Counted from the stretch's first letter, positions 4,642 to 33,156 are shown. The stretch: 33,156 bases of DNA from Oscillospiraceae bacterium (GCA_015064925.1 SVRH01000008.1:1-33156), one strand, 5' to 3'. The notes: generated by a model from the sequence alone, not told the origin. Made by a program: numbers and translations.

Positions 4642-4675
4642 GGGAGATGACCGTTTAGGTCATCTCCCTTTTTAT
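4642..4675. terminator. Rho-independent terminator
   Basis: GGGAGATGACC-GTTTA-GGTCATCTCCC followed by a T-run. Confidence 0.85.
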
Positions 4676-6717
4676 TAGTTTACAGTCAGTTCACCGATAC
4701 TGATAAAGGTCTGAGAGCCGCCTGCCTTACCGCACAGACGCACGCCGTCACACTTGGTGGGAGTGTTCAGTACAAAGGTATAGGTATCATAGTTCTTGCC
4801 ATTATTCTTAAGCGGATATTCATCGCCGTCCATTGTGTATTCAACAGCCTTCCACTCTCCGTTCACCAGCACCTGCACTTCAAGCGTTGTAAACCAACCG
4901 CCGTTGCCGAAGCTCATACCCTCGGTGAAGACAACCTTGGAAACGGTCTTTTCTTCACGGTAGATATAGCCAACGTACGCGGTCTTACAGCCTGCGGGGT
5001 TGCCGTGGGGGTCGCCCAGCACGTAGGTATCGTACTGGCTGCCCTGAGAGGTGGGTGCCTTGCCGTCGCAAATGATGTTGATGTCGCGGGATCCGCCACC
5101 CCAAGGAGTGGTCACGTAGCAGATGATGATGGGCTTGGAAAGCAGAGATGCGCTACCGTCGGTGGCAATCTTCACTTCTCTTTCCACCTTCATTTCGGTA
5201 CCCTTATCACCGGTCACGGTCAAAGTGATGGTGTAAACGCCCTTCTTTGCGTAGGTGTAGGATGCGGGAGTAACGTTATTGAATTTGTAACCGTCGCCCA
5301 TGTCAAGCACGTAGCCGACGATCTTTTCATTCTTGGCGTAGGGAGTCAACTCCACGATCTTCACAGAGCTTCCGGTCACCTTCAGTTCAAGGTAGCCGAA
5401 TACGCCGTCGGGCCACTGCTCGAATTCCACGGGGATGTACAGATTGTCCTTTTCAAAGGTCCAGCTCTTGTTATCGTTCTTGACAGCACCGGACTTTTCC
5501 AAAACCTCTCTCATCAGATCCATGTTCAGATCAATGGTCTCTCTGAAATTGTATTCAGTGAAGGAGAAATTGGTATTGATGTAATCCAGCGCGGATGCGT
5601 AGTTCTTGGGGAGCTTGGATGCGCCGTAATAGTTGCCCAGAATGGAAGCAGCGCTGGAGGGGTTACAGTCACTGTCCTGACCGCAGCGGGTGGACAAAAT
5701 GATGGTCTTGTTGATGTCGCCTTCGCCGTACAGCATACCCAGAAGGATGTAGCCGGAGTTCAGCTTAGCGTCAATGTTGCTCTTGCCGGGCAGCTCGGGG
5801 CAAAGGTCCTTGGATGCCCACTTCACTTCCAGCTTGCGCCAGTTCTGTTCGAAGGTATCGCCCGCCTTATAGCTTTCGATCACGTCGTCCAGCAGATTGC
5901 GGAACTCGGTTCCCTCAGGAATGACCTCCACACCTGCGCGCCAGATCTCTTCAATGGAGGTGGCGGTATATGCCGCAGAGTGCATCGCAGTTACAAACAC
6001 GCCGCCGTACACGCCGTCGCCATAGTTCATAATATGACCGATCTCAAAGGCACGCTTTGCTGCTTCATTGGGCATACCGGGATACATCATGCCAAGGAAG
6101 TCAGCCTCGATCTGCCAGTCGATATCGTCAGCATGGTAATTGTACAGGTAGCTGCCCGATTGGGGGAAAGGAATGCCGTTGAGCAGGTTCTGTCTACCCA
6201 TGTAGTTGGCATGCCAAAGAGCGAACTTGGAGTCGCGGAAGGTCTCTGCCATATACTTGGGATCACAATCCACACCGTGATCCTTCATGGCATCCAAGAA
6301 GGGGATCTCTACGTACAGGTCGTCCTGACCAAAGGCGTCGTTGATCATTTCGGGCTTCCAGATGGGCATACCGGTTTCGGGGATCAGCTTGCCCGCATGG
6401 GTAAACTCTGTGGAAGCCGCCCAGGCAACGCCCACCATCTGACCGATCCAGCCGCCGGTGATCTTATCCTTCATTTCGGCTTCGGTAAGGGTCACCTTGC
6501 TCTTGGCAGGCACGTCGGGTTTTTGAGATCCTTCGGGCTTTTCAGATCCCTCGGGTGTTTCAGATCCCTCGGGTGCATCGGAGCCTTCGCCGGTTCCGGT
6601 ACCGGGTTTGTTGTTGTCGGGGGCGTCATTTCCGGTGCTATTTGAGGCACCGCCGCACGCCTGCAGCAGCATTGCGATCAAGCACAGGATCGCCAACCAT
6701 TTTGCAGATTTTCTCAT
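4675..6717 (-). CDS. Secreted lipoprotein with ADP-ribosylglycohydrolase-family domain plus PKD-like and C-terminal beta-sandwich region
   Basis: Lipobox LLQAC; low-complexity EGS/KPEGS linker; GGWIGQMVGVAWAAS, AFGQDDLYVEIPFLDAM, YGDGVYGGVFVTAMHSAAY and CGQDSDCNPSSAASILGNYYG are family motifs; GDGYKFNNVTPASYTYAKKGVYTITLTVTG is PKD-like. RBS AAGGAG. Confidence 0.8.
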   Translation of the reverse strand: MRKSAKWLAILCLIAMLLQACGGASNSTGNDAPDNNKPGTGTGEGSDAPEGSETPEGSEKPEGSQKPDVPAKSKVTLTEAEMKDKITGGWIGQMVGVAWAASTEFTHAGKLIPETGMPIWKPEMINDAFGQDDLYVEIPFLDAMKDHGVDCDPKYMAETFRDSKFALWHANYMGRQNLLNGIPFPQSGSYLYNYHADDIDWQIEADFLGMMYPGMPNEAAKRAFEIGHIMNYGDGVYGGVFVTAMHSAAYTATSIEEIWRAGVEVIPEGTEFRNLLDDVIESYKAGDTFEQNWRKLEVKWASKDLCPELPGKSNIDAKLNSGYILLGMLYGEGDINKTIILSTRCGQDSDCNPSSAASILGNYYGASKLPKNYASALDYINTNFSFTEYNFRETIDLNMDLMREVLEKSGAVKNDNKSWTFEKDNLYIPVEFEQWPDGVFGYLELKVTGSSVKIVELTPYAKNEKIVGYVLDMGDGYKFNNVTPASYTYAKKGVYTITLTVTGDKGTEMKVEREVKIATDGSASLLSKPIIICYVTTPWGGGSRDINIICDGKAPTSQGSQYDTYVLGDPHGNPAGCKTAYVGYIYREEKTVSKVVFTEGMSFGNGGWFTTLEVQVLVNGEWKAVEYTMDGDEYPLKNNGKNYDTYTFVLNTPTKCDGVRLCGKAGGSQTFISIGELTVN

Positions 6718-6741
6718 ATTGCGCTTCTCCTTTTTAAATTT

Positions 6742-8100
6742 TTATACTGTTTTTTTCACGAAAGGCATCGTTTTCTTTGCCATTTCGGTAATGGAAACCT
6801 TGTTATAACCCATGATATTGCTTTCCAGCGTATCGCAAACGCGATCGGTAAATTCTCTGGGCAGCGCCTTGTAACCGAGCATTACGCCGAGAATAGAGCC
6901 AACGGTGGCACCGTTACAGTCGGTATCAAGACCGGTCTGTACAGACAGACCCACGGATCTTGCGTAATCCTTTTCACCGTACAGAAGGGACGCCGCCACG
7001 ATCTCTGCATTGGAAACGGTGTGGGTCCAGTCGTGACCGTTGCGTTCGTCCCAACGCTTGTGGATATCGGCAAAGCAGTCCTCCACAGAAACGCCGTCAT
7101 GGTACATCTTGATGATGTTTTCCAGTGCCTCATAGGTTCTGGACTTTTCGGGGATCTCAGCCATACCGCGGCGGATCACCTTTTCGGGATCGTCACAGCC
7201 ATAGGCGGCTGCCAGCATGGCGGAAACCCACATTTCACCGTAAATACCGTTCTTGATATGAGAGATGGAGGCATCTCTGTGCGCCATATCGGCAGCGGTT
7301 TCGGGATCGCAGGGGTTGATATAACCGAATACGTCACCGCGGATCTGTGCGCCGATCCATTCACGGTAGGGATTCTTGTACTGTGCGGACATGGGGGGCA
7401 GATATCCGTTGACGAAATTGCGATATGCGATTCTCTCAGCGGTGCAGTACGCATTCTTCACCTGCGTGCCAAGCCAAGTATACGCCACGTGATCGGAGGT
7501 GAAGTCTCTGCCGTGCCACTGCAACAGACGCAGCGCCACGATCATGTAGTTGGTGTCGTCATCGGGGGGCATTCTGCCAAAATCTCTGGGATATGCACAG
7601 CCTGCAATGTTCCAAGAAAGTCCCTTGCCCACTTCCTCTGTAATATCTTCCTTATCGATATAGCGGGTCATGGGGTAGTTGTTTGTTCTTTTCAAGATCT
7701 CCTGCAGTTCCCAGGACATGATGCCCTCCACGGGCTTACCAAGGAAACAACCGCAAACACGTCCATACCAAGCGCCAAGCATTTTGTCCTCGAGAACCTC
7801 GTCCGAGGGCATGGGCATTTCAAGATCGTATGCCTTTCTTGCCGCCTGAATACCGGGAAGATCGCTGGGCTCCACGTAGGGATAACCCTCCTTCATGGGC
7901 GCTTCGCTGACAAGGGTATACAGCACGTCTGCCATCTTTTCCTTGTATTCATTGTTTGGCATGGCAAACACGGCATCAAACAAAGCCTTGTACTGTTCAA
8001 TGTCCTTGCCTTCCTCCACGGATTGCTTGAACTCAACGTCCAATTCCTTTTCGTAGCGCTCCCAGGTGGGGTGCTTATCATAGTTTGGCAGAATCTTCAC
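6742..8100 (-). CDS. ADP-ribosylglycohydrolase-family protein (cytoplasmic)
   Basis: The ORF track begins at 8271, but GGAGGAAAGAAACA-GTG supports a GTG start at 8100. Motifs [41 protein letters not shown] and [17 protein letters not shown]. Confidence 0.85.
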
Positions 8101-9353
8101 TGTTTCTTTCCTCCTTGATTCTTCAGCGTTTTTCTGTAATTTAACGGCGATACGCCGTATAATTTCTTGAATTTTTCTCTGAAAAAGCTCTCGTTGCTGT
8201 ACCCGATGCTGTGGATGATCGCACCGATGGGCATCTCGGTCTCTCTGAGCAGCCTTGCTGCCACCGAGCATCTCTTTTCATTGACGTACACGGCAAAGCT
8301 TTTTCCCACTGTTTTCTTCACGATGTTTCCCGTGTAAACAGATGAATATCCCAGCACCGCTGCCAGCTCCGAAAGACCGGCATCCTGTAAGTGTTCGTCT
8401 ATGTAGCTGTCGATCTTTTGCAGCAGAGCCTCGTCGGCAGCAACGTAGCCTGCATCCTTTGGCTTCAGGCTTTTCTTGACAGCCTTCACCTCATCTGCAT
8501 AGGGGATAGAGGGAGCAGCGCCCTTCTTGGAAACCGCCAGTGCCGAGGCGGCGCATGCCGTTTGAAGGATCTCCTCGGGCGGGTAGCCCCCCGCCAGTCC
8601 TGCGATAAAGTATCCCATAAAGGTATCTCCCGCAGCGGTGGTATCCACCACCGACACGTCATACGCCGAATGGAAGTACAGCTCGTTTCCGTCATGGTAC
8701 ATACAGCCCTTGTCTCCCAGAGTCAACACCACCTTCAACTTGGGATATTTGGCGCGCAGTGCCGAAACGATCTTGGCAGGCTCCTTGCATCCTGAAAGAT
8801 ATTCGCCCTCGATCTCATTGAGCACCGTATACGAAATCTTCTGAAAGTCGATCTTTTCAATATTCGCATCGATCGGAGAAGGATTGATCACCGTCTGCAT
8901 TCCCTTTTCATGGGCGCGTTCCACGATGTACGGGGTATTGTTGATCTCGTTCTGCAAAAGGAGCAGATCTCCTTCTCCAAACTGCGCAAGCACCGAATCG
9001 ATATATTCTTTGGAAAACATACCGTTGGAGCCCGAGTGGATCACAATGGAGTTCTCGCCCTTACAGCTTACCTGAATGACCGCGTGGCCGCTGGGCTCAT
9101 CCATCTTTTGCAAAAACGTCACATCCACACCGCTTTCCGACATGGTGTCCAGCAGCAGTCCTCCGTCCGGTCCGATGCAGCCCGCATGGTACACCTTCTG
9201 TCCCGCCTTTGCGATGGCGATGGACTGATTGAGCCCCTTGCCGCCGGGAAAAACATCTCTGCGGCTGCTGTGCTCGGTTTCTCCCACCTTGACGATGTGA
9301 TCCAGTTGATACACATAGTCGATATTGCAGGAACCGAAATTGACGATCTTCAA
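8097..9353 (-). CDS. PfkB-family (ribokinase-like) kinase fused to a C-terminal AraC-type HTH domain
   Basis: Ribokinase motifs [27 protein letters not shown] and [19 protein letters not shown]-terminal Ara[89 protein letters not shown] start at 9353 behind AAGGGGTG preferred over ATG 9380. The stop overlaps the next start as GTGA. Confidence 0.85.
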
Positions 9354-9481
9354 AATTTCACCCCTTTTCCTTGTTTTCATCTATTATATCACAAATTCAT
9401 CTAAAAATAAAGAACGATTGTCAGTAAAAAACAGACCGATTGAAAGTTTTTCACAAGACATTTCGTTTACCGCCGCATATC

Positions 9482-9510
9482 TTGACAAATATCACCAAAT
9501 CAACTAGAAT
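9482..9510 (+). promoter_or_regulatory. Sigma-A-type promoter
   Basis: TTGACA - 17 nt - TAGAAT upstream of the 9539 CDS. Confidence 0.75.
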
Positions 9511-9538
9511 AAAAACACCATTTCATTGGGAGGAAGCC

Positions 9539-10654
9539 ATGGATTTTAAAGATGCCGTAATAGAGCTCAACGAACAGAATTACAGCTATACAAACGAAAT
9601 ACTGTATGAGATATGCAAAAAGTCGCCGACAATTTTAGATAAAAACACATTGGCAAGCAAGATCGAAATCATCGGTCGCGTCTACGCCGCCTCGCCCGAA
9701 CGGCGCTCTTATAACCGCATCAGGTTTAAGGGGATAATCAATATAAACAAAAGTAAAGAAGAATACGAGATCGATCCCGACCACCATTCGTCACTTAAGT
9801 CCTCAAGCGATGCCACCTCTTTTCCTTCTTGGATCATCAAACCTTTAGGGGATGGACAGGGTAGTTTTTTTACCGAGCTTGCCGAACAATTACGCATAAC
9901 CGAAGACTTTAAAGAGTCATATTCCTATTGTGAAAATCATTCCTTCAAGTTCGATCTTTCCAATGACGATATCGACTTGCTTAAACACGTCATCCGGTCG
10001 GTGCTGTTGTTTAATCAAATGATCAAAGCGGCTACCATGAAGGTGGACGGCGCACCCGAAACGATCACGCTCAAAATGATCGACAAACCAGAAAAGATAT
10101 TTCCCGTACAGGTCAGAAATCAGATCTCCTTCTGCAGTAAGTTTTTGCATTTCCACCTGCCCAACCACATATTTATCATCGATAGTTATTCCAATAAGGG
10201 TGGCGCGCTGCTCTTTTCCGACAAAAACAAACCTGCCTTTCTGTCAAAAGCGAAGATCAATGGATGGGATTTGCTTGCGCCGTTCTCCTCAGCAGCTTCA
10301 TCCAAGATAAAAAACGCAATTGATCAGAAGAGAATCAATTTTTACACGATTGCTCAAAATACAGATAACCAAAGCAATAACGGAAGCGAACACGCGGGAA
10401 CGAACAACGACAAGGATTTTCTCGGAAAGGAATACGCAAATCATGCCCTGCGTGCCTATCTGCTTTGCTGTATATGCAAAAATGTCCCAATCGAACCGAA
10501 GGCGCAGATTCAATCAACCTCGGACATTAAGTCCTATCCGCGACTTGCAGACTGTATTTTGATGAATATAAAAGATACTGACAAACAACAAAACAGCAAG
10601 GACTACGACCGTAAAGAAGCATATGAAATGCTCAAAGCCGGGCAGTCACTGTAA
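9539..10654 (+). CDS. Uncharacterised protein
   Basis: ATG at 9539 behind GGGAGG; 371 aa ORF; contains ASKIEIIGRVYAASPERR. More AT-rich than its neighbours. No family identified with confidence. Confidence 0.75.
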   Translation: MDFKDAVIELNEQNYSYTNEILYEICKKSPTILDKNTLASKIEIIGRVYAASPERRSYNRIRFKGIININKSKEEYEIDPDHHSSLKSSSDATSFPSWIIKPLGDGQGSFFTELAEQLRITEDFKESYSYCENHSFKFDLSNDDIDLLKHVIRSVLLFNQMIKAATMKVDGAPETITLKMIDKPEKIFPVQVRNQISFCSKFLHFHLPNHIFIIDSYSNKGGALLFSDKNKPAFLSKAKINGWDLLAPFSSAASSKIKNAIDQKRINFYTIAQNTDNQSNNGSEHAGTNNDKDFLGKEYANHALRAYLLCCICKNVPIEPKAQIQSTSDIKSYPRLADCILMNIKDTDKQQNSKDYDRKEAYEMLKAGQSL

Positions 10655-12955: not shown

Positions 12956-15550
12956 TCACTTGTTTTTGCGCAGTGCATCCTTCATCTTCATGTAGTAGCC
13001 CTTGAGATCCTTCAGACGGATCTTACGAACGGCGATATCCGTCAGCAGCCAAACGGCAAGCAGCACGGAAATGATCACAATCGGATCATGCACCATTCGT
13101 ATTCCCTGCGTTTTTACCCGCGCCAACGCATCTGTATCGGTAAACAGTGCTCCGTCGGTCAAAACGCACAAATTGTAAAGATACTGCTCGGAGCCTGCGG
13201 CGAACTCGTCGTATTCGATGGAATAGGACACCGCCAGCCCTGTATGCAGCTCATCCACAATACCGGCGCTGATATCTCTCTCGGTAATATACAGATCGTA
13301 CACCCCCTCTGCTTCCATCGGCACGGTACATTCAAATCTGCCGGGGTATACCTGCGTCATCATATACTCGGCGCTCTTGTCCCCCCGCAGGATACTCATC
13401 GACACCGTATTGGAAGAGGTAAGGGAGGCAGTGGTCACCGACACCTTTACACGCTTTCCGTAGTTCTCGACCTCTGCGATCAGAGAAGAATCCCGATGCA
13501 CCTCGGGCACTGTGGTCTTGATCATACCGAGTGTCAGCGTCCTGCCCACCTCGTCCGAAAGCCAACGATCCGACCAGGTTCCGTTCAAGTCACTGGTAAA
13601 GCAAGCAACGTTGCCAAATCCAAACTTCCACGAGGCATAAATGGGATTGCCCTCCTCGGTGGTCAGATACGCTGTGGCGGTATCCTTCAGCGTCGTACCC
13701 AAATAGCCGCCAAGGGTTGCCAGCGGCGCATCGCCGAGCGAGTCGGTGAGCGCACTGTCCTCCTTGATCACGGGTACAAAATCGCCCACGATCAGCGAGC
13801 TGACCCTTGCTTGCTCGGTCTCACTGAGCATAATATCGGGCAGCTCGTCGGCGCTGACGACGTAATAGTACCGTCCGTTTCCGTATTCGGCAATGTTTCG
13901 AAGAATATAAGACGAGTAGCCAAGACCGATGGTGGACACTGTGATGCCCTCCTCTCCCGCTTCGGTGGCAACAGAATAGTATCCGCTGTCGCTTGGTTGT
14001 CCGTCCGACAGAAACAGAATGTGCTTGATATTGGCGCCGCTCTTTTCCAGCTCTGTCTTTGCCAGCTCCAGCGCCTCGGTGTAGTAGGTTCCCCGCCCCA
14101 GCTCAAGAGCTGAAATCGTACGGGTCAGCTCTTCTTTATTGTTGGCATCCGCCCGTAAAAGCGGCGATTCCACCTGTGAGTTTTTGCTGAACGATACCAC
14201 TCCCACGTAGTCGTTGTCGGTCATGGCATCCAGACACTTAATGGCGCCCTGCTTGGCGATCACAAACCGATCACCATTCATACTGCTGGAGCAGTCCAGC
14301 ACCAGCATCAGCGCCACCGAATTGCCTCCGGTGCTTCCCTCCAGCGACAGCGTCACGGGAAGCATATCCTGAAGGAAGGTGTCCTGCATATCTCCATACA
14401 TGAAGGTGTCTTTTCCGCCCACGGCAAACAAGGTTCTGCCATAGCTTCCCACGTATTCCTGCAGGATCTTTTCATATCCCCAAGGCAGATCGTAATACTC
14501 CACGTTGGAAAGCACCACCGAATCGTATTTGCACAGCTCCACCAGTGTTTTGGGAGCAGTTTTGGGGGTGACGGTCGTGATTTCATTTTCACTTGCCAGC
14601 ACCTGCTCCAGTGTCTGCGCATTTGGAAGTGTATCCGCAATGATCAGCACTGTCGGCTGACCCGCCACCGAAAGGCAGGCAAACGATTCGTTGTTCTTTG
14701 TTACAGTATCCTTAGGCACCTGAAGCACCAAGCGGTAGGTATAGATACCTGCGCTTTGGGGAATCACTGTCATTTCCACCATGTTGCTTCCCTTTTTGAT
14801 AGGGTACTCCTGCTCCTTTAGCAAAACATCGTTCTCGTACAGCTGCAAGACCGCCTGACAGTCGGTATTGCTCATCAGCTCCGCAGAAAGAGTGGCTTCA
14901 TTTTCCTTGTACACACTCTCCGGCGCACTGAAGCTGCTGATCTGCACCTCCTCGGTGGGAAGTCCGGTGGTATCGTAATAGATCGCATCCAAACGGATGC
15001 TGCGGTTAGCCAGATCATACGCCGCCTTTTCGGCGTTTCCGCCCGTCTGCTTGCCGTCGGTGAGCAGAATGATCCGCAGCGCCTTATCGGCAGGGGCTAA
15101 CGTAGCGGCATAGTTGAGCGCTCCTTCCAGATCGGTGGCTTCCACGCCGGGCGCAGTCAGGCTGAGCTTGCGATCATTCTCGTCCAGGCTAACGCAGTAC
15201 ACCTGATCCTCACCAAACGCCACCACTCCCACAGGGGTGGTCTTTTCGATCTTTTGCAACAGCTCGTCCGCGTGCGCCTGCATACTCGCCTGCACCGATT
15301 CGGTGCTGTGAGACAGATCCACCAGCAGAATGACCGCCTGCTCATTGACGTTTCTGACCACAGAAAAGCCCGCCAGCACAAACAAAAGTGCCGTTGCCAG
15401 CAGAGCGTGCAAAACCAGAGGAACGACCCTCTTTACGGTATATCTTCTCTTTTTGGGCAGCATGAAAAAGGGCAGCGCAATGATCGCCAGCACCGGCAGG
15501 AGCAGCAACAGGTACAGGGGATGTTCAAAGCTGATCTCAATACTGTTCAT
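12956..15550 (-). CDS. Membrane protein with two VWA-type domains (BatA/BatB-like)
   Basis: N-terminal TM segments; MIDAS-like VILLVDLSHSTES and a second MLVLDCSSSMNGDRF; C-terminal TM. Start at 15550 behind GGGAGTGG, overlapping the upstream gene end. Confidence 0.8.
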   Translation of the reverse strand: MNSIEISFEHPLYLLLLLPVLAIIALPFFMLPKKRRYTVKRVVPLVLHALLATALLFVLAGFSVVRNVNEQAVILLVDLSHSTESVQASMQAHADELLQKIEKTTPVGVVAFGEDQVYCVSLDENDRKLSLTAPGVEATDLEGALNYAATLAPADKALRIILLTDGKQTGGNAEKAAYDLANRSIRLDAIYYDTTGLPTEEVQISSFSAPESVYKENEATLSAELMSNTDCQAVLQLYENDVLLKEQEYPIKKGSNMVEMTVIPQSAGIYTYRLVLQVPKDTVTKNNESFACLSVAGQPTVLIIADTLPNAQTLEQVLASENEITTVTPKTAPKTLVELCKYDSVVLSNVEYYDLPWGYEKILQEYVGSYGRTLFAVGGKDTFMYGDMQDTFLQDMLPVTLSLEGSTGGNSVALMLVLDCSSSMNGDRFVIAKQGAIKCLDAMTDNDYVGVVSFSKNSQVESPLLRADANNKEELTRTISALELGRGTYYTEALELAKTELEKSGANIKHILFLSDGQPSDSGYYSVATEAGEEGITVSTIGLGYSSYILRNIAEYGNGRYYYVVSADELPDIMLSETEQARVSSLIVGDFVPVIKEDSALTDSLGDAPLATLGGYLGTTLKDTATAYLTTEEGNPIYASWKFGFGNVACFTSDLNGTWSDRWLSDEVGRTLTLGMIKTTVPEVHRDSSLIAEVENYGKRVKVSVTTASLTSSNTVSMSILRGDKSAEYMMTQVYPGRFECTVPMEAEGVYDLYITERDISAGIVDELHTGLAVSYSIEYDEFAAGSEQYLYNLCVLTDGALFTDTDALARVKTQGIRMVHDPIVIISVLLAVWLLTDIAVRKIRLKDLKGYYMKMKDALRKNK

Positions 15551-17348
15551 AATAGTACCACTCCCATTCAATCAGCAGTATCAAAAGGAACGCCAGCGCA
15601 AGCCAGAACCAAATGCCGGACGTTGCCATTTTAGGTTCGGTATTCGGCTCTGCAGACAGGGCGATATTGATCTCGTCTCCCGTCTGTGGTGCCGCCTCTT
15701 CCCTTGCGATATGTACAAAGAAATCGGTATACTCACTATGCTGCGCACCCTTCATGACCACCGTATAAATACCCACCGCGTCCAGCGGAAGAACACATTT
15801 TCCGTTTTCGGTATACAGAGTTCTGATCGTTTCATCGGGGTATTGCAGATACATATCTCCCGATCCCGGAAGAGAGGAGATCGTGATCGAATCTCCTGCA
15901 ACATAGTCGGTCTTCGAGATCATAGTCGGGATCGAATATTCCAACAGATTGCCGATCAAAATCGGATAGTCCGCCATGAGGGGCAGATTGGAATTGTGCA
16001 GATCAAAGGAAAACACGGTAAAGCGCACGCCGTTTTCCCGCAGGGATGACATCATCACGGGAACGCTGTAACAGTACAGCAGCGGTTGCCAATCCCGGTT
16101 GCCCAAAAGCCCCGTATATTCCTTCACCACCGCGCCGTAAAAGCTCAGTCCGTTGTACAGATCGCTTTCCAGCTCCTTGTTGATCGAAATTCGTTCATGC
16201 TCCTCATAGAATGTGCCGCACTGTAAGCCCTGCGGCAAATGCTCGACTCCGAACACCACCACAGAGCCGTCCGTAGGGTATTCATCGGGTACGAGCCCGT
16301 CAAAAATGTACAGATCCATACCCTCAAGCGCCACGTCCTCCAGAGAAGGCACAACAGTGACCTCACAGCTGCCAAGCGCCGTCAGCGCACTTTCCAGATA
16401 TAAGGGTGATTCGCTTGCCAAAAGGACCTTGTATTTGGCATGGTTCTTCCGACAAAGGGCATAGCGATTATCCACCGCCAGCGAGTCCTTTGCCTCGATA
16501 AATATTTCCGCCGTGTCAAACGGCTTCATCTTGTTTTTGGTAAACACCACTTCAGCGGCGACGTCCTTTTCACAGCTTACGATCCTGGCATCCACCGTTT
16601 TGCCGTCGATAGCAAGACCCACCGTAACGTCCGCCTGCTCGTGGTAGCTGATCAGACTGCCCACGAACACGGTTTCATCCCCGTTTTCCCTGACCTCAAG
16701 CGAGCCGAGCGAAACGTTCCACTCGTCCTCACTCATATCGATCACGGTGATATTGCCAGCCTTTTCATAGGCACAGTCGGTATAAAACAGAACTTTGGCA
16801 TTTTCGCTTCGGTTGCAGGCGGTCTGTGCCAGAGCCATCGCCTCTTCGGTGTTACAACCGCCGTTGGTGCAGGCAGCCTTGCCGAGAGCCAGCTTTACCT
16901 CTGCCGAGGAATCGCTACCCTCAATGAGAGAAGAAGCGGTGTCTGCCGCCAGAATCACAGTCATGGTGTGTCCGTCCGACAGATCCTGCGCCTTTTTTTC
17001 AATGGCGCTGACTGCCTTGTCAAAGCGGCTCTTTCCCTTTTCATCCGCATTTTGCATACTGGCAGAGCCGTCGAGAATGACCACGTAGTCATAGCTTGCG
17101 CCCTTCACGATCACAGGCTTTGCTGCCATCAACGCAGCCAGTATGATCATGATCAGCTGCAAAAGAAACAGAAGGATCCGACGCAGCCTTCGCAAAGGAA
17201 GTCTCTTTTTGGCAAAACGTTCGCTGAGCTTCCAAATGAACGTACTGGACACAGGGCGCTCCTCGTGCTGCGCTTTGATCAGATATATGATAATGAGAAT
17301 GGGTATGCCCAATAAGAGCCAAAGGCCCGCGGGATTTAAAAATCTCAT
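15537..17348 (-). CDS. BatA-like VWA domain membrane protein
   Basis: MRFLNPAGLWLLLGIPILIIIYLIKAQHEERPVSSTFIWKL (BatA N-terminus); VVILDGSASMQNADEKGKSRFDKA MIDAS; C-terminal TM. ATGA overlap with the DUF58 gene. Confidence 0.85.
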   Translation of the reverse strand: MRFLNPAGLWLLLGIPILIIIYLIKAQHEERPVSSTFIWKLSERFAKKRLPLRRLRRILLFLLQLIMIILAALMAAKPVIVKGASYDYVVILDGSASMQNADEKGKSRFDKAVSAIEKKAQDLSDGHTMTVILAADTASSLIEGSDSSAEVKLALGKAACTNGGCNTEEAMALAQTACNRSENAKVLFYTDCAYEKAGNITVIDMSEDEWNVSLGSLEVRENGDETVFVGSLISYHEQADVTVGLAIDGKTVDARIVSCEKDVAAEVVFTKNKMKPFDTAEIFIEAKDSLAVDNRYALCRKNHAKYKVLLASESPLYLESALTALGSCEVTVVPSLEDVALEGMDLYIFDGLVPDEYPTDGSVVVFGVEHLPQGLQCGTFYEEHERISINKELESDLYNGLSFYGAVVKEYTGLLGNRDWQPLLYCYSVPVMMSSLRENGVRFTVFSFDLHNSNLPLMADYPILIGNLLEYSIPTMISKTDYVAGDSITISSLPGSGDMYLQYPDETIRTLYTENGKCVLPLDAVGIYTVVMKGAQHSEYTDFFVHIAREEAAPQTGDEINIALSAEPNTEPKMATSGIWFWLALAFLLILLIEWEWYYYEQY

Positions 17349-18241
17349 TGTACTAGTCCTGCCTCCGTCGCTTTCATAAACAGTATCCGTTCGATGCTGT
17401 CATCACTGCACAGCGTTACGAAGCCCACACCGCGCGCTTCGCAAAACTGCTTGATCTCATTTTGATGATACAGAAATGCTTCCTCATACGCTTTTACCGC
17501 AGAACGCGTCACGTCATGGCGGTAATTCTTTCCGTCGTCCTCATCGATCGCCTCCGAATCCAGCATAAACACCTTACCGCCAAGCTCGGGCGTGATCTCG
17601 TCGCGGGACAATATCTGAATCAGAAACACCTCTCTGTGGTGATACAAAAGACGGTCCACGGCGCTTTTCCAATCGCTTTCGGTGAGGAAATCCGAAATAA
17701 TGATCGAAAGTCCGTCTCCTTTTCCCGGGTCCTCCTCGGAGATGATCGCAGTACCCAGGTCACTCTCTTCGTAAAATTCCACGCTGTTAAGCAGATCCGC
17801 CGCATGATAAAAGGCTTCCCTGCCCACCACCGTACGGCAAAGTCCCTTGCATACGTCCCCGTGGATCGTATAGTAGGACACGCGATCCATTGCCTGCACC
17901 GCCAAAAAGCCGAGGGCTGCCGCCAGCTGCAGAGCCACGTGAGATTTTTCCGGATTGCCCCAGTCCATAGAAGCAGAGGCATCCAGATAAATGCGATGGT
18001 GCAGCTGCCGTTCATCCACAAACAGTCGCAGATACAGCTTTTCAAAGCGCGCATATAAATTCCAGTCGATGCGCCGCAGGTCATCCCCCGGCACGTACTC
18101 ACGGTAATCGGCAAACTCTACCGAGCTTCCGTAATTGCGCGAGCGGCGGTTACCGCCCAAAAGCCCGTCCATGGGGCGATGGATATACAGATCACGCGAC
18201 TCAAGCATGGCAATAAAATTGCCGTCAATGATCTTTTTCAT
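17345..18241 (-). CDS. DUF58 domain-containing protein
   Basis: YVPGDDLRRIDWNLYARFEKLYLRLFVDERQLHHRIYLDASASMDWG is the DUF58 signature. Confidence 0.9.
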   Translation of the reverse strand: MKKIIDGNFIAMLESRDLYIHRPMDGLLGGNRRSRNYGSSVEFADYREYVPGDDLRRIDWNLYARFEKLYLRLFVDERQLHHRIYLDASASMDWGNPEKSHVALQLAAALGFLAVQAMDRVSYYTIHGDVCKGLCRTVVGREAFYHAADLLNSVEFYEESDLGTAIISEEDPGKGDGLSIIISDFLTESDWKSAVDRLLYHHREVFLIQILSRDEITPELGGKVFMLDSEAIDEDDGKNYRHDVTRSAVKAYEEAFLYHQNEIKQFCEARGVGFVTLCSDDSIERILFMKATEAGLVQ

Positions 18242-18246
18242 AGGAT

Positions 18247-19299
18247 TTAAGACTTACGAAAGCCAAGCACGCCTTTTTTGCGGGGCTGCTCGGTCACAGG
18301 CTCGGGATCGCTCTGCTTTTTACCGCTCACCTCGGTCAAAAGACGACGGATGAGCATATCGGTGGTAATCTTCTCGGTCACCGCTCGGAAGCTGGGCTTG
18401 ATACGGTGACGCAGTACCGGATATGCCAAAGCATTGATATCCTCATAGGATACGTTATAGCGTCCCGCCATCAGAGCGCGCACCTTGCCTGCGGTGATAA
18501 GCGCCTGACCCGCACGGGGGCTGGCGCCGAATCGAATGTAATTCTTGGTAAGCTCAGGGCTATCCTCCAGTTCGGGATGGGTATAGGTCACCAGCTTCAT
18601 GGCGTACTGCATTACGTCATCCATGACCAGAATTTCCTTTGCCGCTGCTCTCATGGCGAGCAGATCCTCACCGGTAAGCACTGCGTTTGCCTTTTCTTCC
18701 ATGGTCTCCTGGGTCATGCTGACGATCTCGGTCAGCTCTGCCATATCGGGAAATCCCACCACAAGCTTGAACATGAATCGGTCCATCTGTGCCTCGGGCA
18801 GAGGGTATGTACCGTCCTGCTCAATGGGGTTCTGGGTTGCAAGAACGAAAAAGGGCTCTTCCAACGTAAAGGTATGTCCGCCTGCGGTCACTCTGTGCTC
18901 CTGCATGGCCTCCAGCAGCGCCGACTGCGTCTTGGGTGTGGCACGGTTTATTTCGTCCGCCAGCACAATATTGCTGAAAATGGGACCCTGCTGGAACTTC
19001 AGCACGTTTTGTCCCTTGTCATCCTTCTCGATGACGTTGGTACCCGTCACATCGGCGGGCATCAGGTCGGGGGTAAACTGAATACGGGAAAAAGGCAGCG
19101 AAAACGCCTTGCCAATGGAACGCACAAGACGGGTCTTACCAACGCCGGGCACGCCCTCCAGCAGCACGTTGCCGCCGGCGATCATGGCGATCACCGTTTC
19201 TTCCACAACTTCCTTCTGACCCACCATATCCTTGGCGATCTCGGTCAAAAGCTCCTCGCTCTTACGGGCAAAAAACGCAATATCCTTTTCATCAATCAT
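18247..19299 (-). CDS. MoxR-family AAA+ ATPase
   Basis: Walker A LLEGVPGVGKTRLVRSIG; LADEINRATPKTQSALLEAMQE; FVLATQNPIEQDGTYPLPEAQMDRFMFK. Confidence 0.95.
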   Translation of the reverse strand: MIDEKDIAFFARKSEELLTEIAKDMVGQKEVVEETVIAMIAGGNVLLEGVPGVGKTRLVRSIGKAFSLPFSRIQFTPDLMPADVTGTNVIEKDDKGQNVLKFQQGPIFSNIVLADEINRATPKTQSALLEAMQEHRVTAGGHTFTLEEPFFVLATQNPIEQDGTYPLPEAQMDRFMFKLVVGFPDMAELTEIVSMTQETMEEKANAVLTGEDLLAMRAAAKEILVMDDVMQYAMKLVTYTHPELEDSPELTKNYIRFGASPRAGQALITAGKVRALMAGRYNVSYEDINALAYPVLRHRIKPSFRAVTEKITTDMLIRRLLTEVSGKKQSDPEPVTEQPRKKGVLGFRKS

Positions 19300-23653: not shown

Positions 23654-24469
23654 TCAACTTTTTTCTGTGCAATATTGTTTTGCAAACTCTTTCACAACAG
23701 ATTTTATTGAAAAATCAATTCTACTATCACAAAAACGTTTGATATGCTCAGGAATCTCTTTGTAATAAGCTTCTGCAATACCGCCGGCTATGCACGCTTG
23801 TGTATCTGCATCACCGCCAAGAGAGATTGCATTTCTGATTGCGCTTTCATAATCTGTCGATTCTAAAAATGCAATAATAGCAGGTGGAACGCTATACGAT
23901 GTACGGCTGTCAAAGACGTGCGTTTCTTTTATGGAGGAAAGTGGCGTTGAGAGCTTGTATTTGAACGTTTTTTCCAAATACGCTTTAATTTGCTCTTTAT
24001 CCGCGCCGCTTCGTGCCAAAAAGATTGATGCAGCAACCGCTCTCGCTCCGACGATTGCCTCGCGGTGATTGTGGGTAGAAAGACAGCTTGCTTTCGCTTG
24101 CAAGAGAGTTTGTTCTAACGAATCATACGCATATCCGATTGGGATAACGCGCATAGAGGCACCGTTTGCATAACTGTGTTTGTTTCTTGCATACGGATCT
24201 TTCGCCCAAGCAACAAACATATTACCAAACCCTGCATATGGGTGATACGAATAATATTGACGGTATTGTGAGGCGTATTCTTTTGCGCGAGCGCGAAGAG
24301 CCCATTTGGAGATTTCGGTTGGATTATTGAGAATTGCCTTGCAGACTGCCGCGATCAATACGCTATCATCTGTAAAAAAGCTGTCTTTGTTAAATTCAAA
24401 ATTGTAATCCTTTGTACAATGAACCTCATAATACGAACCGATTATATCTCCGTATATTGCCCCAAACAT
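23654..24469 (-). CDS. ADP-ribosylglycohydrolase (DraG-like) family protein
   Basis: MFGAIYGDIIGSYYE; TDDSVLIAAV; GFGNMFVAWA; ISLGGDADTQACIAGGIAEAYY. Confidence 0.9.
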   Translation of the reverse strand: MFGAIYGDIIGSYYEVHCTKDYNFEFNKDSFFTDDSVLIAAVCKAILNNPTEISKWALRARAKEYASQYRQYYSYHPYAGFGNMFVAWAKDPYARNKHSYANGASMRVIPIGYAYDSLEQTLLQAKASCLSTHNHREAIVGARAVAASIFLARSGADKEQIKAYLEKTFKYKLSTPLSSIKETHVFDSRTSYSVPPAIIAFLESTDYESAIRNAISLGGDADTQACIAGGIAEAYYKEIPEHIKRFCDSRIDFSIKSVVKEFAKQYCTEKS

Positions 24470-27236: not shown

Positions 27237-30200
27237 TTACTTTTTCTTCTTGCCTATCACAAGCACGGTTGCACCGACCGCAAGGATCATTGCCGCAACC
27301 ACGATCGCGATCACAACGCCAACAGAAAGTCCGGAAGCGTCCTCTTCCTTGCCGCCCTCGTTTTCGGTGTTACCTTCATTTTCGGTGTTACCTTCATTTC
27401 CGGTGTTACCTTCCTCTCCGGTATTGCCTTCATCTCCGCCCGCAAGAGTGCCTGTTAGTTTGGAAACGGTCACAGAATCAAGGGTAAAGTCGCCTTCGTC
27501 AAGAAGAAGGATCTTCATGCCTTCGGCAACCGTAACGCTGTCTTCCAAAGCATTGCCTTCTTTGTCGACCACAACAAAGGTAGTGGTACCGTTACCGTCT
27601 GCCTTCACAGCTTTTTTCAGCTGCGCCACAGTAGTGCCGCCGGAAACACCGTCAAGTTTACCGTCTGCCACGGTATACCCTTTTCCGTTTGCCGCAATGG
27701 TGGCGTAGGTAGGAGTGGAATCCATCAACAGGCTCTTGACGATCTCGGTGCAAAGTGCTACAAATTCGGGACTATCGCTATTCAGCGCTTCGGTAGGAAG
27801 ACCCTCGCCGCGGGATACGATCAATTCCCAAGCGGTGTAAAAATAATCCTCAGGCTTGGTCTCGCCCGACTTCCAAACGCCTCTCTTCACGTTCTTTGTA
27901 GTTTCGGTCAGATAAGCTTCCCAGTTCTTATAGTGATATTCGGAGATCAGACCGGAATATGCACGGTTGGCATAACCGATGAGCTGAGTGCCCGAACTCC
28001 AGGTGGTGATCAAGATCAAGGCATTGTGCTTCATGTTGTCGATGTCGTAATCGCTGTAATCACCGGTGCGTTCGTCATTGACCCAATTTTCAATGCGCTT
28101 GCCCGCCCAGTTGCCGACCATCATGTCCTGAATATACATATTGATCTCATCGGCGAACTGCATGCAACGAAGGAACTTTCTCTTGTATCCGTCAAACTCT
28201 TCGTAATTCTTGTTGTTGACCGCATTTGCCATCTTTTCAAGATATACGCCCGAGCTGTTGCAGACCATCTGCAGCATGATGTCGCAAATATCATAGATAT
28301 AAGTTTTCTCACCCTTGAGGGTGTTAAATTCTTTCATGAGAAGCAAGAACGCTCTTTCCAGATCTCGACCTTCATACATGGGGTTATAATAACCACCCAT
28401 GTAAGCGGCTTCACCGCCATTGACGGAGTTGGCAAACAGTCTGGGATTGCTTGTCATGATGGTATTGTAGGAGGTACCGTCGTAGGTCTTATAACCGTAT
28501 ACGCTGGTGGAAAGCAGTTTCCAAGCGTTGATGATATTGTTGCTGTCGCTGCCGTAACGGCGCTTGGCATAGTTTTCTACCCAAGTTTCCACATAGGAGC
28601 TGATGTAGGCTGCGTTGGTCTGATTTTCGGGAATATCATCGGGAGTGATCCAAACCAGATCCCAATAGAAATCGTAACTTACGGGGTTTTCTTCGGTGGC
28701 TTCGGGAGTAATACCGATGCCCTTGAAGTAATTTGCATTTTGATAAGCATCCATCAGACCCGACATAACGCTCTTGAAGGCGCCGTGCATACCGGTTCTG
28801 CCGCCAAAGTTATCCAGCATACAGAATGCCCAGCCGCTTCCGCCGAATTCCTTACCGCCAAAGTTTGCGGTGTTTTTCCAACGGGGATCGTTGACTGCCG
28901 CCAAGTCCAGCACCAGAATATGATCCACACGGTCTTCCCCAAAGCCCGCAACCACATCCGGCAAGGGGTTTTCCCACCAAGACTGAATGATCCAGCAGGC
29001 TTCTTCATTTTCTTCAATCATCAGATCCAGAACCACACGGGACATATCCGCCTTGTCATAGGAAGAATCCATCTGGAAGCCGCCCATGAGTTCATGTAAG
29101 AAGTCGCCTGCATAATAATCGGTATTCTGACCGTAGAGTGCATTTTGTGTTTCGTAGAAGGCGTCTGCCATCGAGGCAAAGCCGGGATAGGTAGTATTGA
29201 GTGCGAAGGGACGCACGAAGTCTGTCCAAGAGCCGGTGCTTCCCAGATACCCTCTGATATCGGGATATCCCATACCCATCAGAGTGCCGTTTGCTTTGTC
29301 GGAAAAGTTGGTGGGAAGAGTACCCACAAACGCCTGCAGGCAAGGTTCTGCGCCCATGACGGTCATGTATCTCTGGTTCACTCTTGCCATTTCCAGCGTA
29401 TCATACAGCCACTGATCGGCAACGCTGCCACCGTAGTTTTCCAGGTTGCCCATCAGCCACCATGCTTTATACGCATAGCCGCAGACGAAGTTGATGGCTT
29501 CCTGCGCAGAATAGCCGTACTGCTGCAGATATGCCACCCACAGTGCTTCTGTGGCGGTGGTATCGAGAATGACGTTGACGCCGCAGAGCATCAAATAGTC
29601 CAGCTCTCTCTGCCAAGTGTCAAAGCCGTAAAAGGGCATGGTGTAGGACAGAGTACAGTAGTTATAGGCATAGCGCACCTCGCAAAGGGTATCCTTGCGA
29701 ATGGTGTTCTTCACAGCCACGACCGCAGAAGGCATATTGACCTGCTTGGTCTGCTGAGAAACGTTTACATTGCAGTAATACTTCAGGTAGTGATTCAGAC
29801 CCGACGCAATGGCAACACCGTTATTACCCTTGATCTTGATCTTGCCCGAAGAATTCGAGATCTCAAAATAATCGTACTTGCTGTTTTGGTTGGCAACCAC
29901 CTCAAAGATGAACCAACTGTTGTACTGCTCGCCGAGGATTCTGGATACCAAGCCCTGAAGCGCTTCTACGGTGTCGGCTGCGGTATAGGTATCTTCGATA
30001 TCGTAATTTCCCTTGAAATCCTTTAATTTGGAGATATCCACGCCGTGGTTTTCAAAAAGCCACTGATCATAGGTAGTAAAATTGATCTCTTCACGGGTGG
30101 GGATGATCTTGCTGTCGTTTTTGGTACCATGTACCTTAATCTCGCAAACCGAAGCGGCACTTCCCACGTTGGCGGAGGTGACGTTGACGCGGATCACCCG

Positions 30201-31070
30201 GTAATTGACGGGAGTTTCAAAGCTGAAAACCTCTCCGTCCTTACTGCCCGCCTTCTTTACGTTGCTGTCTGCCAAACGGTCAAAATTCACACCGTCAAGG
30301 CTTCCGTAAACGGTATAGGTGAATCTTTCCTTGGTGGGCATAAACACGATGATCTCGGAGATATCGTAGTTGGCAAGCAGATCCACGTCCACGTACTGAG
30401 GATACATGTTACCGTTCCAAGAATTGTCAAGAATACCGTCAGTCACACGCTTGGAAAGCAGATTGTTATAATTAGCGCGGGCGGGCTTACCGATGGCAAC
30501 GTTATTGGGATCGCTTGGGTCCTCGGTAATAGTGGGTTCCACGTAATCGGGATCCATATAACCCATGACGATCAGCTCGCAAATGTGGTATTCGGGGTTT
30601 GCGGAGTTTTTCTTCATGGTAACCTTGACATAGCGCACTCTATCCTGGACAACAGCATAGGTAGTTCCCTTTTCGGTGGCAATGCTATTGTCGGTCTTGG
30701 AACCAATGCAGGTGTATTCCTTGCCGTCAAGGCTGACTTCCACATCAAAATGATAGTAACGGCTGCTATCGTAATAGGTAATGACCGTAACGTCCTCTAC
30801 CTCAAAGGCAAAGCCAAGGTCAAGGGTAACGGTACAGGCGCCGGGTGCCCTGCCACTTTCGGTACTGTCCCAATAGGAAGCCAGATTGCCGTCTGCCACG
30901 GCATCTGCCTGGGTACCGCTGGAGGCGCGTACCGTCTTGCCGAGTGCCAGATTTTCAAGGGTTCTGACAACATTTTCTTTGCCTTCCTCTGCCGATACTC
31001 CGATCATTGCCAAAGGCAAAATCATGCAAAGACAAAGAACCACCGATAAAATGCGAGTAATTTTGTTCAT
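27237..31070 (-). CDS. Secreted alpha-N-acetylglucosaminidase (GH89-like) with N-terminal F5/8-type C (CBM32-like) domains and C-terminal TM anchor
   Basis: Signal peptide; two discoidin-like domains (ALGKTVRASSGTQADAVADGNLASYWDS; AIGKPARANYNNLLSKRVTDGILDNSW); NAGLU-like YNYCTLSYTMPFYGFDTWQRELDYLMLCGVNVIL; GNTENEG repeats; C-terminal TM plus KKKK. Confidence 0.85.
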   Translation of the reverse strand: MNKITRILSVVLCLCMILPLAMIGVSAEEGKENVVRTLENLALGKTVRASSGTQADAVADGNLASYWDSTESGRAPGACTVTLDLGFAFEVEDVTVITYYDSSRYYHFDVEVSLDGKEYTCIGSKTDNSIATEKGTTYAVVQDRVRYVKVTMKKNSANPEYHICELIVMGYMDPDYVEPTITEDPSDPNNVAIGKPARANYNNLLSKRVTDGILDNSWNGNMYPQYVDVDLLANYDISEIIVFMPTKERFTYTVYGSLDGVNFDRLADSNVKKAGSKDGEVFSFETPVNYRVIRVNVTSANVGSAASVCEIKVHGTKNDSKIIPTREEINFTTYDQWLFENHGVDISKLKDFKGNYDIEDTYTAADTVEALQGLVSRILGEQYNSWFIFEVVANQNSKYDYFEISNSSGKIKIKGNNGVAIASGLNHYLKYYCNVNVSQQTKQVNMPSAVVAVKNTIRKDTLCEVRYAYNYCTLSYTMPFYGFDTWQRELDYLMLCGVNVILDTTATEALWVAYLQQYGYSAQEAINFVCGYAYKAWWLMGNLENYGGSVADQWLYDTLEMARVNQRYMTVMGAEPCLQAFVGTLPTNFSDKANGTLMGMGYPDIRGYLGSTGSWTDFVRPFALNTTYPGFASMADAFYETQNALYGQNTDYYAGDFLHELMGGFQMDSSYDKADMSRVVLDLMIEENEEACWIIQSWWENPLPDVVAGFGEDRVDHILVLDLAAVNDPRWKNTANFGGKEFGGSGWAFCMLDNFGGRTGMHGAFKSVMSGLMDAYQNANYFKGIGITPEATEENPVSYDFYWDLVWITPDDIPENQTNAAYISSYVETWVENYAKRRYGSDSNNIINAWKLLSTSVYGYKTYDGTSYNTIMTSNPRLFANSVNGGEAAYMGGYYNPMYEGRDLERAFLLLMKEFNTLKGEKTYIYDICDIMLQMVCNSSGVYLEKMANAVNNKNYEEFDGYKRKFLRCMQFADEINMYIQDMMVGNWAGKRIENWVNDERTGDYSDYDIDNMKHNALILITTWSSGTQLIGYANRAYSGLISEYHYKNWEAYLTETTKNVKRGVWKSGETKPEDYFYTAWELIVSRGEGLPTEALNSDSPEFVALCTEIVKSLLMDSTPTYATIAANGKGYTVADGKLDGVSGGTTVAQLKKAVKADGNGTTTFVVVDKEGNALEDSVTVAEGMKILLLDEGDFTLDSVTVSKLTGTLAGGDEGNTGEEGNTGNEGNTENEGNTENEGGKEEDASGLSVGVVIAIVVAAMILAVGATVLVIGKKKK

Positions 31071-31089
31071 GATAAATCCTTTCTATACA

Positions 31090-31119
31090 GAATGCCGACA
31101 TCGTATGACGCCGGCATTC
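31090..31119. other. Intergenic inverted repeat between the GH92 and GH89 genes
   Basis: GAATGCCG ... CGGCATTC, 8-bp perfect stem; no clear T-tract on the minus strand. Confidence 0.5.
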
Positions 31120-31181
31120 CTTTACAAACACTATTCGGTTAAAGTATCAAATGTGTTTACGATTCATTTCAGACAAATGCC

Positions 31182-33156
31182 TTATTTCGCAACGGTAATC
31201 ACACCGCCCGAAACGGTGACCGTCAAGGTGGCAGTTCCCTTTGCCGTGCTTCCGTTCAGCTTGGCGCTTGTGGTAACTGTCATGGTATACGTTCCATCCT
31301 GCAGAGAATCGATGACTGTACCGAAGAGATATCCGCAGTCCAAGCTGACAAGCGCGTTCGCGTCCTTGTCGGTGGAGACCGCAGCGACCTTCTTACCATC
31401 CACAGTGCCGTACATGGTCGTATGCACCTTGGAAACGGTGTTCTTCACCGTCTTGTCACCGGCGCCCTTCAGAGTCACGGTCATTTCCAGATCCTCGCAG
31501 TCAAGCGAGTTCACGTAGCCGACAAGGCGAAGGCTCTTGCCGTCGTTACCCAGCTGATAACCCGCCAGACCGACGTCTGCCTTGGTGACACCCGATTTGG
31601 CTTCCTTGCCCCCGATGAACTCAATCTCAGCAAGCTCGGTGCCGCCGTACAGAGTCACGCGGTAATATTTGTACTCGCCACGCACGTCCTCGGGCACACT
31701 GAAGGACTGAACATAATTGTCGAATTTCCATTCAACGTTCATTCTTTCGTCTGCCTTGGTCCATTTCGTTCCGTCGTTGGAGACCTCCAGCATGAACGCC
31801 TTGGGTGCGGATGCCGCCTTGCCGGAAGCAAGCGTAACCATCGTTACAACTGTGGCTTCGTTGCTCTTGAGGGTGATGGTATCACCGCGGGTGATCTTGG
31901 AAACGGTCAGACTGTTGTTGTCAAACAGATTGGTGCTGTTTTCGATGTCGGTCTGCACCGTGACACCCGAGGTCTTGATAATATCCGACAGAGCGGTGGG
32001 CTTTTCTCCCTTTGCAGTCAGAGAGGTGGGTGCAGAATCGGCAGCACTACCCCAAGCGGAGGGCTTGTTACCCATTTCAAATACGATCTCGCAACCGCTT
32101 GTCAGCTGCTCGTGGGTTAAGAACATCTTGTTGTAATCCTTACCGTTGAGCTTGGCAGACTGAATATATACGTTTTCATCCGAATTATTGTTGGCAGTGA
32201 TCACGATATCCTTGCCGTTTTCCAGGTGAATCGTCACCTTGTCAAACAGAGGAGAACCGATTACGTACTCGTTGGAGCCCATGGCGTAAGGGTAGAAGCC
32301 AAGAGCGTTAAAGATGTACCAGCCGGACATTTCACCGTTATCCTCATCACCGGGATAACCCTGACCGAGCTGAGAGCCCACGTATACGTGGCGCAGAACC
32401 TCTCTTGTGTACTGCTGTACTCTGTAAGGCTCGCTTGAGAATGCGTAGGTATAGATCACGTGGTGAGAGGGCTGGTTACTGTGCATATACTGGCCCATCT
32501 TCACTTCCTTGAACTCTGCGATCTCGTGGTGGACCGAACCGATCTCAACCACGTTCTTCATGGCTTCATAGCTGTCGTCAAAGAGTGCGTTCAGCTTTTC
32601 TGCCAGCTTTGCCGCACCGCCGTGCAGCGTTGCCAAGCCCTGACCATCGAACACTGCAGGGAACGCGTACATCCAACCAACAGACTCGGTGAAGTCGTAC
32701 ATCGGTCCGTTCCACTGTGCGGGATCGAAGGCATTCTGTCCGCAGGACCAAACACCGGACAGCGACTTACCCATAAAGAAGCCGGCTGCTGCGTTGTAGA
32801 GCTTCACGTACTGCATACATCTGTTGTAGTAATACTCAGCCTCATCGGACTTACCCATTGCCTCTGCCATACGGTACAGACCGTAATCGTTGATATAGCC
32901 CTCAATAGAGCTGGAATATGCCTCGCCCACGAATTCGCTTGCGGTGCCGACCAGCTTGTTATTGGCAATATAGCCGTTGAAGGGTGCAGTGTTGTTTTCT
33001 TTTCTGCCGCCCGCGGTCATATTGCCGGAATATGCCGATGCGCTCTTGAGAATCGCATCAAACGCTTCCTCGTAATTGAACTTGATGCCCTTTAAATAGG
33101 CGTCTGCAAAAATGACGTCGCTGGAGGTACCGACCATGCAGTTTACAGGTCCGGGC
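31182..33156 (-). CDS. Secreted GH92 alpha-mannosidase-like protein with C-terminal discoidin-like/Ig-like modules, 5' truncated by window edge
   Basis: PGPVNCMVGTSSDVIFADAYLKGI runs off the edge; GDEDNGEMSGWYIFNALGFYPYAMGSNEYVIGSPLFDKVTIHLENGKDIVITANN is characteristic of GH92. Confidence 0.9.
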   Translation of the reverse strand, partial: PGPVNCMVGTSSDVIFADAYLKGIKFNYEEAFDAILKSASAYSGNMTAGGRKENNTAPFNGYIANNKLVGTASEFVGEAYSSSIEGYINDYGLYRMAEAMGKSDEAEYYYNRCMQYVKLYNAAAGFFMGKSLSGVWSCGQNAFDPAQWNGPMYDFTESVGWMYAFPAVFDGQGLATLHGGAAKLAEKLNALFDDSYEAMKNVVEIGSVHHEIAEFKEVKMGQYMHSNQPSHHVIYTYAFSSEPYRVQQYTREVLRHVYVGSQLGQGYPGDEDNGEMSGWYIFNALGFYPYAMGSNEYVIGSPLFDKVTIHLENGKDIVITANNNSDENVYIQSAKLNGKDYNKMFLTHEQLTSGCEIVFEMGNKPSAWGSAADSAPTSLTAKGEKPTALSDIIKTSGVTVQTDIENSTNLFDNNSLTVSKITRGDTITLKSNEATVVTMVTLASGKAASAPKAFMLEVSNDGTKWTKADERMNVEWKFDNYVQSFSVPEDVRGEYKYYRVTLYGGTELAEIEFIGGKEAKSGVTKADVGLAGYQLGNDGKSLRLVGYVNSLDCEDLEMTVTLKGAGDKTVKNTVSKVHTTMYGTVDGKKVAAVSTDKDANALVSLDCGYLFGTVIDSLQDGTYTMTVTTSAKLNGSTAKGTATLTVTVSGGVITVAK

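Follow-up and report, generated by a model that had tools for sequence, protein, structure and literature searches.

The window analysed here, a stretch of 33,156 nucleotides that makes up one entire contig in the draft genome (1.77 Mb) of an Oscillospiraceae bacterium, carries on its minus strand an operon of three genes, encoding a fusion of a PfkB-type kinase with an AraC-type DNA-binding domain, a cytoplasmic enzyme of the ADP-ribosylglycohydrolase family (PF03747) and a secreted PF03747-PKD lipoprotein (Table 1). This arrangement had been proposed in the original prediction, and its open reading frames, Pfam domains and GTGA overlap were all found: in aaacaGTGAag, the GTG start of the second gene (8100) overlaps the TGA stop of the fusion (8099–8097), and the third gene starts 24 bp past the stop of the second. 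The predicted start of the fusion is TTG 9353, because ATG 9380, which we considered and rejected, falls after the -10 box yet before the predicted transcription start, and because homologues align from the TTG. At its far end the operon is closed by an 11-bp stem followed by T's. Elsewhere on the contig lie a cluster of MoxR ATPase, DUF58 and BatA/VWA genes (12956–19299), similar genes also being found near the fusion gene in locus L074; another PF03747 protein, the third on the contig, which is shorter, closer to the DraG/Tri1 type and encoded outside the operon (23654–24469); and a host-glycan-type cluster of large NAGLU (alpha-N-acetylglucosaminidase) and GH92 proteins with F5/8 domains (27237–33137).

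Table 1. Features of the operon and its upstream region (positions in the window)
Feature	Position	Strand	Basis
Terminator-like stem separating the operon from the convergent pyrophosphatase gene	4642..4668	.	sequence
Secreted PF03747-PKD lipoprotein, 680 aa	4675..6717	-	ORF, Pfam
PKD domain of the secreted enzyme	5188..5334	-	Pfam
Putative lipoprotein signal peptide ending in LLQAC lipobox	6655..6717	-	read from sequence
Cytoplasmic ADP-ribosylglycohydrolase-family enzyme, GTG start, 452 aa	6742..8100	-	ORF, Pfam
PfkB-AraC fusion, TTG start, 418 aa	8097..9353	-	ORF, Pfam
AraC-type HTH_18 domain, ~aa 311–408	8130..8423	-	Pfam, PDB search
Ribokinase-like PfkB domain, aa 1–291	8481..9353	-	Pfam, profile, alignment
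Extended -10 box TGATATAAT	9383..9391	-	sequence, alignment
Second candidate half-site GTTCTTTATTTTT, overlapping poor -35 region	9403..9415	-	sequence, alignment
Candidate operator half-site GGTCTGTTTTT	9427..9437	-	motif scan, upstream alignment

The 418-aa fusion is encoded in a single frame, in which Pfam recognizes both PfkB (3.8e-44) and HTH_18 (6.1e-17), the latter as a complete double helix-turn-helix (62.1 bits, profile positions 1–79 of 80), and its predicted structure has a pLDDT of 87.9. The protein matches TIGR02152 at 6.6e-68 with 229 bits, short of the equivalog cut-off of 299.65 bits, and the closest solved structures of its kinase part, down to 7e-45 in a PDB search, are ribokinases. 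Alignment with Escherichia coli RbsK, whose ribose-site and catalytic residues we take to be N14, D16, the GGKG motif, N46, E143 and D255, bore out the predicted intact ribokinase site, since every checked residue is kept (N10, D12, 37–40, N42, E136 and D243); these residues would be compatible with another pentose too. All examined fusions except that of G053 agree at fifteen active-site and motif positions of ribokinase, which suggests that the kinase has been kept active and, therefore, that the fusion is not merely a kinase-derived sensor. In the G053 protein (L056, 1–1121, the contig ending within the AraC domain) the catalytic Asp is replaced by Val, giving SAGV for AAGD, and the promoter motif described below is retained; it is possibly a sensor-only form.

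The combination of a PfkB kinase with a PF03747 enzyme recalls E. coli yegTUV, where a transporter, a PF03747 enzyme and a PfkB kinase are encoded under GgaR, a single-target regulator reported to respond to ADP-glucose (PMC10819704). The operon might be a comparable module tied to ADP-glucose and glycogen, a reading that we regard as highly improbable given that the kinase shares 31% identity with RbsK but only 20% with YegV, that YegV lacks the ribose-site N and K in the same alignment, and that the cytoplasmic enzyme shares 20% identity with YegU. Apart from the adjoining PF03747 and kinase genes and the single-target regulator, the yegTUVW/GgaR system differs in having a separate GntR regulator and a kinase of another subfamily, and in having no secreted enzyme.

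According to the original prediction, its scheme would be refuted if homologues of the three genes never co-occurred elsewhere; however, the trio was found in at least five species when we inspected neighbourhoods of the cytoplasmic enzyme, which had served as query against relatives and against 297 family genomes. The identical order is seen in G000, G001, G012, G180 and G089 (at least five species, all of one family). A contig end just before the kinase cuts the trio in G253 and G220, the secreted gene is absent from G136, which has the first two genes, and in G096 the parts occur with the kinase unfused and with an XRE domain fused to the PF03747 enzyme. Among 43 loci selected solely for their PF03747 gene, seven have a PfkB gene at most two genes away, against 0 of 212 farther genes (p=0.002). 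The kept gene order and this enrichment rule out that the three genes are chance neighbours.

For most bacterial members of PF03747, no substrate has to our knowledge been assigned. Both enzymes of the operon clearly exceed the curated PF03747 cut-off of 26.2 bits, the cytoplasmic one with 169 bits (2.2e-49) and the secreted one with 118 bits (1e-33); the latter also matches PKD_4 (2.1e-8), and its N-terminus, MRKSAKWLAILCLIAMLLQAC, contains the lipobox. The cytoplasmic enzyme has an N-terminal domain of ~100 aa, and its fold and profile are nearest to ARH3 and DraG, albeit in a model of low confidence (mean pLDDT 58.6); DraG was reached weakly in a profile search, phmmer against the PDB gave no match, and no viral relatives were found. 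The canonical metal site, TDD(T/S)...DxDT, is not matched by either protein, which read DDDT...DTDC (cytoplasmic) and QDDL...DSDC (secreted): the four metal-site aspartates are kept in both, and two canonical positions are changed, with D for T before DD and C for T after DxD in the cytoplasmic enzyme, and Q and C, respectively, in the secreted one.

Some relatives of the cytoplasmic enzyme are themselves enzyme–regulator fusions, ~26 of 61 carrying an N-terminal XRE HTH_3 domain (including L060, L065, L186, L187/L282, L191–L193, L197–L202 and L205–L209). This domain occurs in none of the 6 loci with AraC on the kinase versus 26 of the 55 others (p=0.03, kinship ignored), and because relatedness is uncorrected, the apparent mutual exclusion is only a hint. 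In addition, a PF03747 protein of 700 aa that bears DDDVN/DTDCN motifs is encoded upstream of the kinase in L100, L102 and L150 (Oscillospiraceae, Oribacterium), with a LacI-type regulator and apparent sugar ABC permease genes as neighbours.

When 85,488 species genomes were scanned with the fusion alignment, 80 loci were returned, about 20 of them fused; the PfkB-AraC fusions found amount to ~24, in gut Clostridia. The next same-strand gene of these 24 fused kinases (one locus being counted twice, as L055 and L075) encodes a nucleoside hydrolase in 11 cases and a PF03747 enzyme in seven, and the fusion and its partner gene mostly overlap or lie a few bases apart. Among the tested partners of fusions, Pfam found PF01156 in three, and it did so too in the partners of L114 and of the unfused L099; the new loci L258 and L262 also have a nucleoside hydrolase partner. 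These hydrolases are of a divergent type, with a DTDxxNEIDD motif and scores of about 73–86 bits. Unfused kinases of the subfamily likewise adjoin genes for a nucleoside hydrolase, a nucleoside phosphorylase or a PF03747 protein, the last in L059 and L194 (both together with a nucleoside phosphorylase), L150 and L282. In the kinase tree, the ADP-ribosylglycohydrolase (ADPRG)-linked fusions form one clade (100/99) inside the fusion clade, whose commonest partner is the nucleoside hydrolase. Because they form a single clade beside the hydrolase-linked fusions, the PF03747 enzyme appears to fill a nucleoside-hydrolase slot. The tree backbone around this clade has moderate support only, so the direction of the swap, from nucleoside hydrolase to PF03747, is likely rather than proven. 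The lack of a nucleoside hydrolase in 7 of 8 trio genomes was considered as proof of replacement and set aside, such a gene being present in just 20 of 59 relatives.

Since the residues next to the metal site differ and the partner is swapped with a nucleoside hydrolase, the two PF03747 enzymes are better read as ribosyl hydrolases, putatively acting on nucleoside-like compounds or ribofuranosides, other than classical ADP-ribosyl hydrolases. Were they true ADP-ribosyl hydrolases, reversing ADP-ribosylation or degrading NAD-derived ADP-ribose with the kinase taking up a by-product, the proximity to ARH3 and DraG in profile and in the low-confidence model and the retained aspartates would be accounted for, as would a related kinase in G010 that has a Macro-domain protein of 340 aa encoded directly after it (L057, 9834–11761). 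We nevertheless consider this quite improbable: sister operons use a nucleoside hydrolase as the partner, ADP-ribose is useless to a ribokinase, two canonical metal-site positions are changed, and the neighbours of the trio included no transferase or Nudix gene. The original prediction held that sugars of the ADP-ribose type are released, for which we found no support; because ribokinase needs free ribose and the slot is otherwise occupied by a nucleoside hydrolase, free ribose is the sugar more probably released. With this substitution, the predicted scavenging scheme is largely upheld.

The pairing of a secreted with a cytoplasmic enzyme, also part of that scheme, is supported as well, and the secreted type recurs beside a ribose-type ABC transporter in L109 (Lachnospiraceae), where consecutive genes encode a secreted PF03747-PKD protein, an SBP, an RbsA-like ATPase, an RbsC-like permease and the kinase, a row that matches a putative scheme of cleavage outside the cell, import and phosphorylation. 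An RbsC-type permease was not found in G000 or G001. A ribosyl hydrolase pair is nonetheless not the only reading of such an arrangement, as the operon could serve a different sugar, such as a plant or host-glycan pentofuranoside, with the secreted protein acting as a glycan-active glycosidase and the kinase phosphorylating the sugar set free. The contig also carries GH43-like, NAGLU and GH92 enzymes, a GH43 gene lies just upstream in G001, and a PfkB gene is lacking in the vicinity of many relatives of the cytoplasmic enzyme; against this, the ribose-site residues of the kinase are retained nearly throughout, and nucleoside hydrolase and phosphorylase partners indicate ribosides, which makes a different sugar unlikely.

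For the regulatory half of the fusion, the intergenic region 9354–9481 had been singled out in the original prediction as the place to test for DNA binding, and it is there that we found a candidate operator conserved upstream of the fusions. In the window, the second half-site sits 21 bp downstream of the first, and 21 bp is the usual spacing of AraC-type direct repeats. An upstream alignment of about 22 fusion loci of both operon types revealed a shared element at fixed spacing, in the order gGTCTGTTTTT, 10–11 bp, G..CTT..TT and extended -10 box. With at most one mismatch, the GGTCTGTTTTT motif is present in 16 of 23 fused and none of 64 unfused upstream regions (p=2e-12, kinship among loci ignored). 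Five fused loci outside the motif definition (L037, L251, L252, L258 and L262) have it with 0–2 mismatches at -72 to -76, while all new unfused loci show at least three mismatches; L037 (G053) had been found earlier and is counted here because it was unused in the definition, and some further fused loci that duplicate earlier ones were excluded from the new-locus count. Within the ADPRG clade the motif is exact in the window and in G089 and degenerate in some members, e.g. CGTCCGTTTTG in G001. Beside the operator region starts the longest frame of a divergent 404-aa ORF with no Pfam match (9440–10654).

Exact copies of the 11-mer elsewhere in 12 genomes lie mostly within genes, and a wider regulon for the fused AraC domain, which we considered, is for that reason unsupported; we read the domain as a probable local autoregulator. 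A few promoter-like exact sites were noted in L225 and L226. As the candidate site adjoins a poor -35 region, we infer that the regulation would be activation.

Taken together, we think it probable that the operon is a self-controlled module for the salvage of glycosidically linked ribose, in which the fusion combines a working ribokinase and an autoregulatory AraC-type activator in one polypeptide. In the presence of ribose or a close relative, the fusion would bind the candidate GGTCTGTTTTT direct-repeat site over the poor -35 and activate the operon to which it belongs; outside the cell, the secreted lipoprotein would cleave ribosyl compounds, the cytoplasmic enzyme would cleave imported ribosides, a role that the nucleoside hydrolase would play in sister operons, and the kinase would phosphorylate the ribose so released to ribose 5-phosphate. 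Of this scheme, the architecture, the kept gene order and active sites, the exchange of partners and the conserved promoter element are observed, whereas we infer which reactions the two PF03747 enzymes catalyse, which ligand acts, in which direction the operon is regulated and how import takes place. More tentative, at somewhat less than an even chance, is the specific proposal that the fusion reads the sugar through its catalytic domain while activating its own operon, and that the DDDTN/DTDCN subfamily of PF03747 consists of ribosyl hydrolases that replace nucleoside hydrolases, some relatives having a fused XRE regulator of their own.

Several known systems share parts of this design. E. 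coli rbsDACBKR also pairs a ribokinase with a dedicated local regulator, and differs in that RbsR is a separate LacI-type protein and in that there are no hydrolases. Bacteroides thetaiotaomicron has a ribose-scavenging system, reportedly described in Glowacki 2020, whose locus includes a ribokinase and a nucleoside hydrolase (PMC10434189). This system resembles the operon in having a ribokinase, a ribosyl hydrolase (the nucleoside hydrolase), surface parts and a role in ribose scavenging in the gut, and differs in its SusC/D-type uptake and its phylum; its regulator is not known to be fused to the kinase. In Bifidobacterium longum, a cluster of ribokinase and nucleoside hydrolase (B8809_1363-1366) is required for growth on ribose, and the nucleosides tested did not support growth of strains that carry a similar cluster (PMC13011590); ribokinase and ribosyl hydrolase thus occur together there as well, whereas an AraC fusion, a PF03747 enzyme and a secreted hydrolase are not described. 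New here are the finding that the fusion is general, the swap of its partner and the conservation of a promoter element. We found no description of a PfkB-AraC fusion in the open-access literature, which is weak evidence of its novelty.

The swap with a nucleoside hydrolase predicts a substrate for PF03747 enzymes that can be assayed, and the kinase-AraC fusion with its conserved candidate operator represents a compact enzyme–regulator design. If the proposed scheme is true, it would account for the sensing of riboside-derived ribose by gut Clostridia with no separate sensor.
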